Below, piece after piece: positions 574 through 12,410 of a DNA stretch of 12,451 bases. The stretch is taken from NCBI GenBank assembly GCA_016780605.1, contig JADHLS010000066.1, positions 1 through 12,451 on the forward strand. Reading direction: 5' to 3'. The notes under the pieces were generated by a model. That model saw only the letters and a program-made list of their open reading frames with translations. It was not told where the DNA came from and searched no databases. The position numbers and the translations under genes were made by a program. Every line of letters starts with the position of its first letter. Position 1 is the first letter of the stretch. The stretch comes from Reyranella sp. (GTDB lineage Bacteria > Pseudomonadota > Alphaproteobacteria > Reyranellales > Reyranellaceae).

Positions 574-709
574 AGCCACAGATGAACACAGATAAACACG
601 GATGCAGAGTCACCGCGGCGCTTCTCATGCTCTTTTGGACCGCCGGCCTCCGGCCGGCTCATGATCATGATGCCGGCCGGAGGCCGGCGGTCCGGGAGAC
701 CATGAGCAG
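574..709. repeat. Dispersed intergenic repeat, copy A (full form)
   Basis: The block begins AGCCACAGATGAACACAG with short near-tandem units (ACAGATGAAC, ACAGATAAAC, ACGGATG) and ends AGACCATGAGCAG. It recurs at 1669-1777 with the same order of blocks. Copy A has one extra short unit and a complete hairpin (637-693) that copy B lacks on its left side. Similar CACAGAT...ACACGG intergenic repeats are common in environmental bacterial genomes. No ORF here looks real. Confidence 0.85.
637..693. repeat. Perfect 21-bp inverted repeat (hairpin) inside repeat copy A
   Basis: Arms 637-657 and 673-693 are perfectly complementary over 21 bp (GGACCGCCGGCC... on the left). The 15-base loop, 658-672, itself contains the palindrome TCATGATCATGA. 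It lies 17 bases past the stop of the ABM-fold gene on the minus strand. It could fold in that transcript, but no U-run follows in that direction, so a classical intrinsic terminator is not supported. Confidence 0.85.
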
Positions 710-4603: not shown

Positions 4604-5347
4604 CTAGGGCAGCCCCAGCATGCGCGGCAGCGTGCAGGGGATCCGCTCGATGGCGACGATCAACGCCGCGATCAGGCCGCCGAAGATGACGACGATCAGC
4701 GCCGAGAGCGGGCTCAGCATGACAACGGCGATGATGGCGCCCGCCACGATGGCCCATTTGAGCGCCCAGCCGATGGCGCCGAAGGCGCGGCAGCGGCTCG
4801 CGTCGCACAGGGAGCGCGCCAGCACCAGCGCCGCAACCGCAACGGGGAGCGCGATCGGGATCCAGGGTGCGGCGATCGCGGCCCAGGCCGGCACGCCCTG
4901 CGCCACGATGGCCAGCAGGACCACCAGCAACGCCAGCGCACCCACAAGGATCAGGAGCCCGCACAGCGCTTCCAGCCCGCAGACGATGGCGAGCACCGCC
5001 CACTTGACCACCTGGACGACGATCGACGCCAGCACCCAGATCAGGGTGACGATCAGGTGGCAGATCGCTGCAATCACATGATCGATGGTCGTGATGACGA
5101 CCGTGATGACCTGGACCAGCACGTCGATCAGCCAGCAGAACCACTTGTTGCAGCACAGGCACCCCCAGTTGCACTCCTGCTCCGAGCAGCGCTGCTGCTG
5201 GGTATGCAGCCAGCTCTGGAGGTCCTGCTCGACCTGTTCGAGCCAGTGCTGCGCCTGGGTGCATTGCTGGTCGGCCGAGGCGCGCCACTGATTGACCCAC
5301 TGCTCGACGTTGTCGGTGAACCACTGGCCGATGTCGCGACAGTTCAT
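4604..5347 (-). CDS. Cys/Trp-rich multi-pass membrane protein (third gene of the membrane unit), unknown function
   Basis: This 247-residue protein of no family I recognise begins with a hydrophilic N-terminal segment (1-50) rich in Trp, Gln and acidic residues and probably helical (QWFTDNVEQWVNQW, HWLEQVEQDLQSWLH). Next comes a tight cysteine cluster, CSEQECNWGCLCCNKWFC (54-71; spacing C-x4-C-x3-C-x-C-C-x4-C). Several strongly hydrophobic helices follow: about 73-90, 92-117, 118-149, 160-177, 195-212 and 215-233. There are fourteen Cys in all, including some inside or between helices. The clustered Cys could bind a metal or Fe-S group or form disulfides, but this is inference. Its ATG overlaps the stop of the gene before it as ATGA (5344-5347), a sign of translational coupling. 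A GGGGG run lies about 7 bases upstream of the start. Confidence 0.72.
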   Translation of the reverse strand: MNCRDIGQWFTDNVEQWVNQWRASADQQCTQAQHWLEQVEQDLQSWLHTQQQRCSEQECNWGCLCCNKWFCWLIDVLVQVITVVITTIDHVIAAICHLIVTLIWVLASIVVQVVKWAVLAIVCGLEALCGLLILVGALALLVVLLAIVAQGVPAWAAIAAPWIPIALPVAVAALVLARSLCDASRCRAFGAIGWALKWAIVAGAIIAVVMLSPLSALIVVIFGGLIAALIVAIERIPCTLPRMLGLP

Positions 5348-5805
5348 GGCAACCCCCGCTCTGCTGATCGTGCGCGCCTCACGAGCAAGGATGCCTGCGA
5401 GGCGAAGACTGCGCGTGCCGCCACGATCGCCAGGGCCTTGCCCAGGATACCCATGCCGACGACGAAGGCGGCCGCGTACAACACCATGACGGGCGTCGAG
5501 CCGGACTCCGGCACCAGGATCGACGGTGGACCCGCGATCGACCAGGCGAGCGCAGCAAGCGCGAACAGGGCGCCGGCCTGGCAGCCGCAAACGCCCCGCA
5601 GGAAGTTCAGTCGCCGCTCGGACTTGCGCTGAAGCTCGGCCTCGACGAACGGCAGCTTGAGCGAGAGCGTCGCAAGGGGCGACCACCGCGACAGCGGGGC
5701 CGCGAGCGCCGCCAGCTGATCCGGCGACGTCACTTCCAGGACGCCGGCGCTACGCGCCTGGACCTTGGAGGCCCGCTCCGTGAGGGGTTGGTTCCTGGTC
5801 GGCAT
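5344..5805 (-). CDS. Small two-helix membrane protein (second gene of the membrane unit), unknown function
   Basis: This is a 153-residue protein. A hydrophilic N-terminal part (1-70) contains LEVTSPDQLAALAAPLSRW and an amphipathic charged stretch FVEAELQRKSERRLNFLRG. A first membrane helix spans about 74-92, with CGC at its start. A short loop, PPSILVPESGSTP, leads to a second helix at about 105-130, and a basic tail ends LVRRARSAERGLP. Two helices with charged flanks place both ends on the cytoplasmic side by the positive-inside rule. I do not recognise the family. It starts 4 bases after the stop of the HETGH protein gene and its own stop overlaps the start of the Cys/Trp-rich gene, so the three are very probably made together and may form one membrane complex. 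Confidence 0.7.
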   Translation of the reverse strand: MPTRNQPLTERASKVQARSAGVLEVTSPDQLAALAAPLSRWSPLATLSLKLPFVEAELQRKSERRLNFLRGVCGCQAGALFALAALAWSIAGPPSILVPESGSTPVMVLYAAAFVVGMGILGKALAIVAARAVFASQASLLVRRARSAERGLP

Positions 5806-5809
5806 GGCG

Positions 5810-6748
5810 TCAGAACCACAGCCGCAACGAGAAGTCGGCGACCGCCGTGCCGGGCATGTTGCGCGAATGGCCCTCGGCCGTCAGCTCGCCATAGGCGAGG
5901 TTCTCGCTCGACGGGAAGATGTTCTCGTCGATTGCGTTGATCCACAGCACGACGCCGCCCATAGCCGCCGTGTTGAGCGAATGTCCGGTCTCGTGCGAGC
6001 TGGTCGACGGCGTCGTGAAGCGGCCGGCCGCGGCGCCTGCCGCCGTGGTGCCCGCCAGGAAGGTGAAGTTGCCGAGCGAGAAGCCGCCGTTGAAGCCCGT
6101 CACACCGCTCAGGCCGCCGCGCGTCTCGATGACCCCGGTGGTCCAGTCGAACGCGAAGGCGCCGATGCCGAAGGCGGTGAAGGCGAACGGGATGTTGATG
6201 AAGAACAGGAGCAGGCCGAAGACAGTCGCCAGCCAGGACAGCGGGAACAGCCAGGCGGACCAGCCGAGGAAGCCCTGATAGACCCGGTTGCGCGCGACGA
6301 AGATGACGGCGGCCAGGGATATGACCGTGAACGCCCAGGTTGCCAGCACCGGGCCGACGATGGGTACCAGGGACAGCAGGATGACATCGACGGACACGTT
6401 CATGCCGATCAGCAAGCCGCGCCCGAAGAACTCGCCGGGCGTGGCCGCCAGGGTGACCGGCACCGGCGTCGGAAAGGGCGCCGCCAGCGGAAAGGTGGCC
6501 CCGGCCGGCAGCAACGGCGCGATGCTCCTCGTCGCGATCAAGTAGGCGACCAGGAAGCCCATGACGAGGAACAGGATGGCCACGGCGAGGGCCAGCGAGC
6601 CCAACGCGGCAACCATGGGCGCCAGCACACCGCCGAGTGCGCCCAGCACGCCCTGCAAGGCAAATCCAAGACTGAGGAGTGCGGTGACCGTGGCGAGCGC
6701 GCCGAGAACCAGTCCGACAAGCCAACCCAGTAGGATGAACACCGGCAT
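5810..6748 (-). CDS. Multi-pass membrane protein with an HETGH (HExxH) motif, first gene of the membrane unit
   Basis: This is a 312-residue protein. The first 200 residues are mostly membrane helices (about 2-30, 46-71, 112-135, 137-153, 165-200), with a Pro-rich loop at 78-104. A roughly 110-residue hydrophilic C-terminal domain follows: Gly-rich GFNGGFSLGNFTFL, then TSSHETGHSLNTAAMGG with H252-E253-x-x-H256, then LWINAIDEN and AYGELTAEGHSR. HExxH is the zinc-binding and catalytic signature of many metalloproteases; it follows a Ser/Thr-rich turn and runs into a hydrophobic helix, as in real zinc sites. The third ligand cannot be named, but Asp274, Glu275, Glu288 and Glu292 are candidates. 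I do not recognise the family, and proteolysis is an inference. The ATG at 6748 begins directly at the first helix; a GTG at 6784 would add 12 residues. It is first in a three-gene unit. Confidence 0.75.
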   Translation of the reverse strand: MPVFILLGWLVGLVLGALATVTALLSLGFALQGVLGALGGVLAPMVAALGSLALAVAILFLVMGFLVAYLIATRSIAPLLPAGATFPLAAPFPTPVPVTLAATPGEFFGRGLLIGMNVSVDVILLSLVPIVGPVLATWAFTVISLAAVIFVARNRVYQGFLGWSAWLFPLSWLATVFGLLLFFINIPFAFTAFGIGAFAFDWTTGVIETRGGLSGVTGFNGGFSLGNFTFLAGTTAAGAAAGRFTTPSTSSHETGHSLNTAAMGGVVLWINAIDENIFPSSENLAYGELTAEGHSRNMPGTAVADFSLRLWF

Positions 6749-6913: not shown

Positions 6914-6944
6914 CCTCCCCTTCGCGGCTTCCGCGAAGGGGAGG
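6914..6944 (-). terminator. GC-rich hairpin downstream of the amidohydrolase gene
   Basis: A perfect 14-bp stem (CCTCCCCTTCGCGG and its complement) with a 3-base loop lies 10 bases past the stop of the minus-strand amidohydrolase. A second small hairpin, GGCCC-TTC-GGGCC, adjoins it at about 6900-6912. No U-run follows. This pair resembles a common alphaproteobacterial intergenic repeat and may help end or stabilise the transcript. Confidence 0.5.
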
Positions 6945-6954
6945 AAGGCTTTGC

Positions 6955-8466
6955 TCAATCCGCGCGCACGTAGCCGTAGCGCAGGTTCGACGGGCCGGCC
7001 GCGGCCAAGGCGTAGTCCTTCTTGAGCGCGGCGAACCTGTCCTCTGAGTAGGCCGGCATCTTCGTGTTGGACGCAGCCTTCAAGCGGATGCCGTACATGC
7101 CGAGCGCATTGTTGGCGAAGATCATCTGCTTGGTCATGCTGTTGGCGTCGCCCAGGGCGGCGAAGCCGTGCTTCTTGCGCATGTCCTCGGGGATCTCGAG
7201 CCGCCGCATGGCCTCGATCTGCCATTGCGGCGAGCCGTACCACACCGAATCGGTGCCCCACAGCACGTGGTCGGCGCCCATGCCCTTGATCAGCGTGCCG
7301 ACCAGGGCGGCGCAGAACTTGGGATGCGACACGGCCGAGTTGGCGAAGGCCGTGCCGAGCTCGGCGTAGACGTTGTTGACGCCATACTTCTGCGGGATCT
7401 CGGCGAGATCGGAGACCCACTTCATGCGGCCGGTTTGCTCGAACTCGCCCCACGCCTGCTCGGGCAGCTCGAAGGCCGGGCGCAGGCAGGCGTGGTACAT
7501 CACGAACTTCATCTGCGGCCAGTCTTTCGCCGCCTTGCCGATGTCCTGGGCGGTCGCGTACTGCCACACGCCGGCATAGGACTTCTCGTAGTCGGGCGGC
7601 AGCAAGCCCTTGTGGATGCAGATGGTGGTGATGCCGGCCTTCACCGCCTTCTCGTAGAACGGATAGACCAGCTTCTCGTCGTCGAGCCGCCACGGGAACT
7701 TCGACGGATTGAGCGGGTCGCCGATGGTGTAGCCCTTCCACGACTCGGGCTTGTGCACGGCGATCGCCTTGTCGACCTCATCCATCCAGCCGGGCTGGCC
7801 AGGGATGATCAGGCTGTGCGCCAGCAGCCGCCGCGAGCCCGCGAAGCCGTTGATCAGGGCGCGCGCCTGGGCCATCTGCTCGTTCGACAGGAACCACCAG
7901 GTGGGATCGTCGAACGGCGCGCCGCTCAGCAACGCCAGGCTGGTGTCGCTGTCATAGAAGATCTCCTTCACGTAGTTCTGGAACTTGTAGCGGCCGAGCG
8001 AGGCCACGCCCTCCTCGGCGAGCTTCTTGTTCCAGTTCACGCTGGCGAACTTGGCGAGGTCGAGAAGCTCCTTGTGCTCGAAGTCGTCGCGCACGAAGTG
8101 GGTCTGGACGTCGAAGATGAACTGGCCTGAAAGGCCATCGGCGCGGGCCTGCGCCAGCTCGGGCTCGCGCGCCTCGGCCGGCGTCACCTGGAAGACGTTG
8201 CCGCCATAGACCTCGTTCATGGCGACGAACGCCGCCGCCATGCCGCACGAGGTGCGGAAGAACTGGCGGCGGTTGAGCCCGAGCCGCGCCGCGTTGGCGT
8301 CGGCCAACTCGTTCAGCCGCGCCTCGACCCGCTTCTGGGTCGCCGACTGCGGCGGCGGCAGATACTCGCCGTTGGAGACGATCTGGGTCGGGATCGGCGT
8401 CGCCGCCGAGGCGGCTTCGGCGCCGGCGACCAGGCGCTGTTCGCGTTCACTGAGCCAATTACCCAT
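6955..8466 (-). CDS. Amidohydrolase-2 family metal-dependent hydrolase with internal Tat-type signal
   Basis: This is a 503-residue TIM-barrel hydrolase of the amidohydrolase-2 group (the ACMSD/decarboxylase-like superfamily). Likely metal or catalytic positions are FDVQTHF (Asp119, His123), CIHKGL (His285), MYHAC (His325) and LWGTDS (Asp406), in the usual order. The first motif is D-x-Q-x-H rather than the standard HxH, so one metal ligand is replaced by Gln121, which may mark a subfamily or altered metal binding. A twin-arginine motif NRRQFF with a hydrophobic stretch (65-84) suggests Tat export of a folded, metal-loaded enzyme, but it is preceded by an unusual 64-residue hydrophilic extension. 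The ATG at 8466 is well supported by GGAGG 6 bases upstream, so the extension is probably translated. Hydrolysis or decarboxylation of a carboxylated substrate is typical; the substrate is unknown. The TetR gene lies upstream on the same strand. Confidence 0.9.
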   Translation of the reverse strand: MGNWLSEREQRLVAGAEAASAATPIPTQIVSNGEYLPPPQSATQKRVEARLNELADANAARLGLNRRQFFRTSCGMAAAFVAMNEVYGGNVFQVTPAEAREPELAQARADGLSGQFIFDVQTHFVRDDFEHKELLDLAKFASVNWNKKLAEEGVASLGRYKFQNYVKEIFYDSDTSLALLSGAPFDDPTWWFLSNEQMAQARALINGFAGSRRLLAHSLIIPGQPGWMDEVDKAIAVHKPESWKGYTIGDPLNPSKFPWRLDDEKLVYPFYEKAVKAGITTICIHKGLLPPDYEKSYAGVWQYATAQDIGKAAKDWPQMKFVMYHACLRPAFELPEQAWGEFEQTGRMKWVSDLAEIPQKYGVNNVYAELGTAFANSAVSHPKFCAALVGTLIKGMGADHVLWGTDSVWYGSPQWQIEAMRRLEIPEDMRKKHGFAALGDANSMTKQMIFANNALGMYGIRLKAASNTKMPAYSEDRFAALKKDYALAAAGPSNLRYGYVRAD

Positions 8467-10484: not shown

Positions 10485-10485
10485 G

Positions 10486-10585
10486 TCTTTGCAGGGGGCG
10501 CTCCACTCTGTGGCGCTCATTGTCTTCGGAGCGCCACTTACGACGGAGCTCCGCTCCGCCTCTAGTGGCGCGCTCCCAGCAAAGA
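10486..10585. repeat. Intergenic palindromic (REP-like) element, copy 3
   Basis: The outer arms at 10486-10507 and 10564-10585 are complementary at 19 of 22 positions (TCTTTGC... with ...GCAAAGA). The inner parts include GTGGCGCTCAT and a small hairpin around GGAGCTCCGCTCC. A 52-base block at 10531-10582 matches 12355-12406 with two differences. It follows the cupin stop codon. Confidence 0.85.
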
Positions 10586-10617
10586 GGTGACAATCGCTTC
10601 CCACAAAGGAGCCTTCC

Positions 10618-11124
10618 ATGAACAGGCAGTTGTCCGTTGGCCTCCTCTCCTTGCTCATATGGGCGCTCACCCCCAACAACAGCTTCGCCCAGGCGGCGTC
10701 GCTCAAGGACCAACTCGTCGGGACGTGGATTTACGTTTCGAGCACGGCCAAGCGTGACGATGGCACCAGCGTCCCGCGGCCGAGCCTGCAGGGAGCCGTG
10801 ACCTACACAAAGGATGATCGATTCCATTTCATAACGACGCGCACCGATGCGCCGAAGTATGCGTCGAGCGATCCTGCTCGCCCTTCGCCGGACGAGGCCA
10901 TGGCCGTCGCCTCGGGATCGATCGCCTATGCCGGCACGTACAGGGTGGACGAGGCCACGAAAACGATCCTTCCGACCATCGAGTTCAGCACGTTTCCAAA
11001 TCTTGTGGGAGCTCCCAATCAGCAGCGGATCGTCACGTCCATCACGGCGGACGAGATGAAGTTCACGAACCCGCGCACGGCTGCCGGCTTGACGCTGGAA
11101 ATCGTCTGGAAGCGGGCGAAGTGA
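10618..11124 (+). CDS. Secreted lipocalin-like domain protein
   Basis: This 168-residue protein has a Sec signal peptide (MNRQLSVGLLSLLIWAL..., cut near NSFAQA, about residues 23-26). The mature part opens with LVGTWIYVSS, the usual lipocalin-like start, then SLQGAVTYTKDDRFHFITT, SIAYAGTYRVDEATKTI and IVTSITADEMKFTNP. This fits a small beta-barrel of the lipocalin-5-like type found in many alphaproteobacterial periplasmic proteins of unknown role. Such barrels bind hydrophobic ligands, but no ligand is known here. ATG 10618 has AAAGGAG 6 bases upstream (10605-10611). Its stop overlaps the beginning of the following broken amidohydrolase reading frame, which may once have been its operon partner. 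Confidence 0.85.
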   Translation: MNRQLSVGLLSLLIWALTPNNSFAQAASLKDQLVGTWIYVSSTAKRDDGTSVPRPSLQGAVTYTKDDRFHFITTRTDAPKYASSDPARPSPDEAMAVASGSIAYAGTYRVDEATKTILPTIEFSTFPNLVGAPNQQRIVTSITADEMKFTNPRTAAGLTLEIVWKRAK

Positions 11125-12278: not shown

Positions 12279-12296
12279 GGCCCGAGATCAGGGGCT

Positions 12297-12410
12297 CTCA
12301 TTGCCGGGAGCGCGCCACTCCGTGGCGCTCATGTGCTTCGTGATCGACGAAGATGCGCCACTTACGACGGAGCTTCGCTCCGTCTCTAGTGGCGCGCTCC
12401 CAGCAATGAG
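12297..12410. repeat. Intergenic palindromic (REP-like) element, copy 4 (longest)
   Basis: The outer arms 12297-12319 and 12388-12410 (CTCATTGC...GCAATGAG) are complementary at 22 of 23 positions. Inside are CTTCGT-GATCG-ACGAAG, GTGGCGCTCAT facing ATGCGCCAC, and ACGGAGC-TTC-GCTCCGT, so a multi-branched structure is possible. It lies 18 bases after the TPR gene stop. Nothing further is seen from 12411 to the end of the window. Confidence 0.88.

Follow-up and report, generated by a model that had tools for sequence, protein, structure and literature searches.

The window analysed here is a 12,451-nucleotide stretch of Reyranella sp. DNA (contig JADHLS010000066.1 of assembly GCA_016780605.1; G000:C483:1-12451), taken from a 4.34-Mb metagenome-assembled genome (MAG) that is 60.7% complete. 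Three adjacent genes on its minus strand, termed A, B, and C, are tentatively read as encoding a membrane-bound metalloprotease module related to the cargo of Tc/RHS proteins, with two dedicated partners and a conflict-type role. The conflict-like role is suggested because the sister domain of A rides on Tc-like proteins and because the unit is patchily distributed.

The coupled unit and its recurrence

Gene A (6748-5810) encodes a 312-residue protein that is an integral membrane protein by hydropathy and structural model, with HETGH at residues 252-256 and E288 and E292 downstream. Within its C-terminal region (residues 198-312; 5813-6157, minus strand), the secondary structure of the model and the column conservation mark out strands, a helix bearing HExGH, and a further helix with E288 and E292. 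A 4-bp gap (5806-5809) leads to gene B (5805-5344), whose 153-residue product has a polar N-terminus, a C-G-C motif at residues 73-75, and two hydrophobic stretches, at about 72-98 and 102-142 by hydropathy. The stop of B and the start of C overlap in an ATGA (5347-5344), and C (5347-4604) encodes a 247-residue membrane protein with an N-terminal amphipathic helix, a cysteine cluster at residues 54-71, several hydrophobic helices, and 14 cysteines. The first-pass annotation had described this same arrangement of a polytopic A with an HExxH motif, a small two-helix B, and a cysteine-rich polytopic C, and sequence, translations, and hydropathy bear it out.

A pattern scan for A across the GTDB species genomes returned five loci. 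The order A-B-C is kept in L002 (Gemmatimonadetes), L003 (Parerythrobacter), and L004 (Amaricoccus), all of them MAGs, which together with the window gives four complete loci from a Gemmatimonadetes and three proteobacterial genomes (two phyla). The ATGA between B and C is found in all four, and the spacing of A and B is 4 bp, 5 bp, and, in two loci, a 1-nt overlap. Relatives of B occupy the same position in L002, L003, and L004 (phmmer 5e-16, 1.4e-8, and 1.7e-7, respectively). The flanks differ in every case: a PepSY_TM protein and, judged by eye, an alcohol-dehydrogenase-like gene in L002; an NAD kinase in L003, beside a gene that by eye we take to be SecA-like; and a transposase and a DNA methylase in L004. 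The gene-neighbourhood comparison proposed in the first-pass annotation thus finds the trio together, as a coupled operon, in each complete locus.

At the gammaproteobacterial locus L005, A is followed by an overlapping gene for a 171-residue protein that matches the C-terminal part of C only (profile E 2.6e-5 among the ORFs of the loci; hhalign E 1.8e-5, probability 78), and no B was found there. This partial locus, and the A-like domains that RHS proteins carry in the absence of B and C, as a separate clade, are what one would expect of three neighbours that have no joint function and are packed together incidentally. The concern that homologues might be found apart is thus real for A; against it, A-B-C is intact in all four complete loci, and order and overlap are identical across both phyla between different flanks. 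Incidental packing is on this evidence very improbable, and the reading as three unrelated genes was rejected, the conserved coupling largely refuting it.

Searches of 5.8 billion proteins at E <= 1e-3 yielded 167 homologues of A and 43 of C, so the recurrence goes beyond chance; these searches, like that with the RHS end described below, scored roughly 8000 candidates sharing most words. Among the best 120 of the 167 A homologues and the 43 of C, none has a Pfam domain, and the named entries all read "hypothetical protein." The exact length of the longest contig is common to a C cluster and an A cluster for 15 of 42 C clusters set against 119 of A, rising to 14 of 28 C clusters where that contig is at least 2.5 kb; both counts are lower bounds, since 47 of the 167 A matches are unlisted. 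Contig data cover 119 of the 120 listed A and 42 of 43 C.

Behind the trio in L004 lies a gene (12675-14747) for a cysteine-rich protein of 690 residues with a sub-threshold PKD-like region and a cysteine-bearing hydrophobic end domain. By eye this domain is C-like; it has a weak pairwise match to the C-like protein of L005 (E 0.001), and its match to the C profile is not significant (E 0.019 among 4 sequences; hhalign probability 0.6). An 898-residue protein that has no Pfam match comes next.

Relatives of A in the cargo position of Tc/RHS proteins

A is not, as had first been supposed, unrelated to everything. In L006, a locus of a deltaproteobacterial MAG, the match to A lies at the end of a 1963-residue frame that also holds SpvB, FG-GAP, TcdB_toxin_midN, and RHS repeats; Rhs_assc_core spans 1614-1696, and directly behind this core, from about residue 1697 onwards, the A-like domain fills the rest of the frame. 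Window A and this end share 76 of 198 residues (38%; BLASTP E 2e-30; profile E 3.7e-33). A search with the L006 protein end, admitting only proteins of 0.55-1.75 times the query length (roughly 1,080-3,435 residues), returned 125 proteins, 120 of them listed. Among the listed proteins, 111 are 1,841-1,995 residues long, most carry SpvB, TcdB_midN, and RHS domains, and all 120 match profile A1.

In the two loci that could be read, the gene preceding the RHS gene has TcA_TcB_BD, with E 6e-28 in L006 (also L048) and 4.8e-32 in L046 of genome G1608. Since the domain stands directly behind the RHS core and a TcA-like gene precedes it, its place is the cargo position of Tc-like B/C proteins. The two proteins concerned (4709-10600 in L006; 7461-13289 in L046) end in a strongly hydrophobic, HExGH-bearing domain, and apparently hold a membrane protease in cargo position. 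By sequence, A is homologous to this domain from the membrane helices to the end.

Three further features of these genomes may be recorded. The end of the L006 RHS gene is overlapped by an ORF (10591-11001) for a 136-residue cysteine-rich protein, lipoprotein-like by eye, which could be a partner and whose codon-position GC is unconvincing. Directly after the L046 RHS gene comes a SNase-family protein (7062-7454). The L006 genome (G459), at 12.2 Mb, has six TcdB_toxin_midN matches.

A itself is a free-standing protein, outside any shell of SpvB, TcdB_midN, and RHS domains. TcA_TcB_BD had no match in the window genome or in those of L002-L005 (G000, G455, G456, G457, and G458), all MAGs from which a contig may be missing, and TcdB_midN had none in G000, 60.7% complete, or in the MAGs of L002-L004; the L005 genome has one TcdB_midN match (E 1.9e-4, 22.3 bits; 28.3 bits with its neighbours in frame).

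This kinship raises the doubtful, though not negligible, alternative that the trio is an orphan polymorphic-toxin cassette of the Tc/RHS kind, in which A would be a protease toxin that attacks membranes and B, C, or both would confer immunity. It would account for the cargo-position relatives of A, for the place of B and C directly after A in translational coupling, and for the patchy distribution. Yet A lacks any domain for export or delivery, the trio genomes show no TcA match, and the survey table of Zhang et al. (PMC3482391) gives no immunity partner for Tox-MPTase1. Moreover, a profile search of the whole L006 genome found no match to C at E <= 1e-3, so C was rejected as a general antidote of the RHS-borne domain; that search covered L006 and not G1608, and because the same profile also missed the distant 171-residue protein of L005, a diverged C may exist in the L006 genome.

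A conserved metallopeptidase-like core

For the comparison of the two sets, an alignment and tree were built from 113 A proteins, 111 RHS-borne domains, and L005, after dropping 9 of the 120 listed A proteins (<280 residues) and 9 of the 120 RHS proteins (<1800 residues) and adding L003 and L004 to the A set. In the FastTree tree all 111 RHS domains and the remaining 114 sequences fall on opposite sides of a split with support 0.999. HExGH is present in 119 of the 120 listed free-standing A proteins and in 119 of the 120 listed RHS-borne ones. The exceptions are P0270, which ends early, and the A homologue P0040, whose database entry, judged by eye, seems to change frame at the HExGH region.

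Column conservation of H252, E253, and H256 is 1.00 in A and 0.99-1.00 in the RHS set, and the first acidic residue past HExGH above 0.9 in both is E288 (1.00 and 0.99), as compared with E292 (0.96 and 0.82) and E275 (0.82 and 0.85). Altogether 36 columns show similar conservation in the two sets (A at least 0.90, RHS at least 0.85); they include R110, G115, G159, L161-G162-W163, P169, G178, G205, G226, and W311. An HExxH motif with a glutamate 32 residues after the second histidine is a gluzincin-like ligand pattern, and both A and the RHS domains show the gluzincin combination of HExxH with a conserved downstream glutamate. Because HExGH and E288 fit this pattern, we infer that A is likely to have metal-dependent peptidase activity, with E288 probably a metal ligand; the protease idea of the first-pass annotation has gained strength from the near-invariance of these residues in both sets.

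A different view of the same residues is that A is part of a channel or transporter in which the metal bound by HExGH is structural, and that C is a cysteine-rich partner handling metal. We consider this improbable: Glu253, dispensable for a structural metal, is kept at 1.00 in A and 0.99 in RHS, and the transporter matches seen with Foldseek (E >= 3.3) are untrustworthy.

Family and fold searches

Neither Pfam nor NCBIfam gave a match above cut-off for any of the three window proteins, and the PHROGs and PADLOC matches, at best E 0.97, carry no weight. That best value belongs to SspH against C, the only hit among the PADLOC anti-phage defence models, which returned nothing for A and B. Pfam, including its M48 and M50 families, gave A no match even at E <= 10; the Peptidase M48 cut-off of 20.3 (PF01435) was not reached, the L006 counterpart scoring 13.3 bits. 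PDB sequences searched against the alignments gave nothing better than E 1.2 for A and 0.46 for C. Single members of the A family reached at best EccD (E 0.0036, 1 of 29), DUF2721 (0.0074, 1 of 29), and YccF (0.02, 2 of 29), and single members of the C family ARGLU (0.022, 2 of 19); none of these was accepted as a relative.

The AlphaFold2 model of A has a pLDDT of 86 and a pTM of 0.88, and the model of C has a pLDDT of 80 and a pTM of 0.55. VIA-align and Foldseek with A, and Foldseek with C, gave no trusted match; two phage proteins from the viral structure library had probabilities of 1.00 and 0.99 at E 0.04 and 0.046. The earlier statement that the trio belongs to no recognised family holds for the family and sequence libraries searched, and fails for A in that it has relatives inside RHS/Tc-type proteins.

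The cysteine-rich partners

In window C and its 42 homologues (P0154, which is short, was left out), 13 of the 14 cysteines are present in 43 of 43 sequences and C71 in 42 of 43, and 32 of the 43 have exactly 14. Six of them lie at 54-71, after the N-terminal helix, which is polar and amphipathic, and before the hydrophobic part. Among the 120 listed A proteins, 79 have no cysteine and the maximum is two. In an alignment of four B sequences, the C-G-C of residues 73-75 is among 13 invariant columns. So far B and C have been seen only alongside free-standing A.

Such cysteines could also belong to a regulated protease resident in the membrane, in the manner of site-2 or M48 enzymes, with B or C as substrate or sensor and the cysteines sensing redox state or metal. 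The membrane helices with HExGH and a downstream glutamate, the near-invariant cysteines of C and the CGC of B, and the stability of the operon all agree with such an enzyme. Against it, the unit is rare and scattered instead of being typical of a lineage, its own genome being the only one with A among 61 relatives and 398 phylum genomes; nor does any regulator recur among the neighbours examined. We rate this account as rather unlikely.

Rarity and genomic setting

A-B-C is rare, accessory, and thinly scattered. Surveys with profile A1, which scored at most 5-6 candidates per genome in partly overlapping genome sets and whose counts include the seed genome, found A in the seed genome only among the 61 relatives (36 of them others of the genus), among the 398 phylum genomes, among 395 genomes of the phylum of the L002 genome, and among 328 genomes of the family of the L003 genome. 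Among 325 genomes of the family of the L004 genome, the seed and G1608, with its RHS-borne copy, were found. The RHS end of L006 was likewise found in its own genome only among 377 genomes. As a control of specificity, all A1 matches in these surveys are free-standing A or an RHS-borne end. Carriage as plasmid or phage cargo was considered and rejected, there being no match for A or C in plasmids or phages and none for the RHS ends of L006 and P0262 in plasmids; viral_contigs searched with profiles A1 and A2 held no relative.

The unit does not stand out from its surroundings in base composition (GC 0.680, against 0.673 and 0.663 in the flanks), and a simple scan found no promoter-like site for it. 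Its neighbours in the window are ordinary: a pyridine-nucleotide oxidoreductase to the left, and an amidohydrolase and a TetR regulator to the right. Five genus mates (G012, G014, G020, G024, and G033) retain the amidohydrolase (6955-8466) at a protein identity of 85-90%, with patches of conserved DNA reaching to about 8711. Conservation ends at the 3' end of this gene, on the side of the trio, at about 6939-6957, and in the five genus mates no other window gene lies beside the amidohydrolase except for TPR-protein matches of 32-39% identity (L040 and L041). Because DNA conservation stops there and the other window genes are not beside the amidohydrolase in relatives, no insertion boundary can be defined, and a clean empty site within the genus was discarded as an interpretation. 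Short interspersed repeats occur at window positions 621-707, 1725-1775, 2599-2629, 10485-10585, and 12295-12409, and are present also in stretches from relatives in the genus (L038, L040, and L041).

Proposed role of the unit

In the reading that we tentatively prefer, A would be an integral-membrane, metal-dependent peptidase in which H252, H256, and probably E288 act as ligands and E253 as the catalytic base. Made as a free-standing protein, it would stay in the membrane of the cell that produces it. B and C, co-translated with A, would most likely be its binding partners within the membrane, holding, assembling, or gating it, and the 14 cysteines of C and the CGC of B would form disulfides or a metal centre. 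The module would serve a conflict-type role in the producer.

Several points weigh against this reading. The metal binding and activity of A are predicted from its sequence, and Foldseek, run against PDB and the viral library, found no fold match at E <= 0.001, so that the peptidase fold gains no independent confirmation from it. The nearest family hits are sub-threshold: Peptidase_M48 (E 0.074) and eCIS_core (E 0.078) at the HExGH of the L006 counterpart and, in NCBIfam, for the C-terminal region of A, only an ammonium-transporter match (13.5 bits against a cut-off of 514). It is gene coupling that suggests a physical A-B-C complex, and the comparison of B covers four loci. The absence of TcA and TcdB was observed in MAGs, that of the window being 60.7% complete, and scanning of neighbours (8 in the window, 2 in L002, and 1 in L003) revealed no known defence family, so that a conflict role gains nothing from them.

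A more far-reaching form of the proposal, which we regard as speculative and unlikely, is that the trio is an undescribed membrane-bound metalloprotease complex, with a catalytic subunit that Tc-like machines also carry as cargo. In it a toxin-type A would sit in the membrane of its producer, held by a redox- or metal-gated cysteine lock built from the 14 near-invariant cysteines of C and the CGC of B, so that disturbance of this lock by stress or invasion would free the protease. It would follow that an integral membrane protease is delivered by some Tc-like complexes.

Comparison with known systems

The M48 (HtpX/Ste24) and site-2 M50 proteases place HExxH in a multi-helix membrane protein. 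Like these membrane gluzincins, A has HExxH and a downstream glutamate; unlike them, it gives no Pfam or fold match to their families. The eCIS_core or PVC-metallopeptidase family has HExxHxxQ-E, and its description in the 2012 survey mentions no membrane part (PMC3482391); the RHS counterpart resembles it below threshold, whereas A has HExxHxxN rather than HExxHxxQ. The same survey (Zhang et al. 2012, PMC3482391) describes Tox-MPTase1 as a toxin of the HExxH metallopeptidase type that occurs with RHS repeats, counts TcdB/TcaC among its modes of delivery, and gives it no partner for immunity. Membrane helices go unmentioned in that description (PMC3482391), the name Tox-MPTase1 was met in one paper, and the Pfam searches brought up no Tox-MPTase model. 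The RHS-borne domain may be that family. The main text of a 2021 survey of Tc proteins contains no word starting with "metallo," "peptidase," or "transmembrane," and uses "protease" twice, both times for the RHS aspartyl autoprotease (PMC7861908). The peptide strings CLCCNKW, HETGHTLN, and HETGHSLN were not met in papers, and literature searches and family libraries yielded no description of the free-standing trio.

Company of a known type thus exists for the catalytic domain and is lacking for the membrane unit of three genes with its partners. C is striking in itself, as a membrane protein whose 14 cysteines are fixed and which has very few besides. If A is a protease, the Tc-like complexes bearing this domain would be delivering a membrane protein of several helices, an unexpected cargo given the narrow channel it has to pass. 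The closest comparison is with the Tc/RHS C-terminal domain, which shares with A the membrane helices, a GxLGW...P.S block, HExGH, the third glutamate, and the C-terminal tryptophan; window A differs from it in being a free-standing protein of 312 residues, in a separate clade, accompanied by B and C, and in coming from a MAG, 60.7% complete, that gave no match to TcA or TcdB. Through this likeness the unnamed family of A is tied for the first time to a known setting, the cargo position of Tc/RHS proteins, and as the domain also exists free, with two dedicated partners, its activity can be tested outside a giant toxin.

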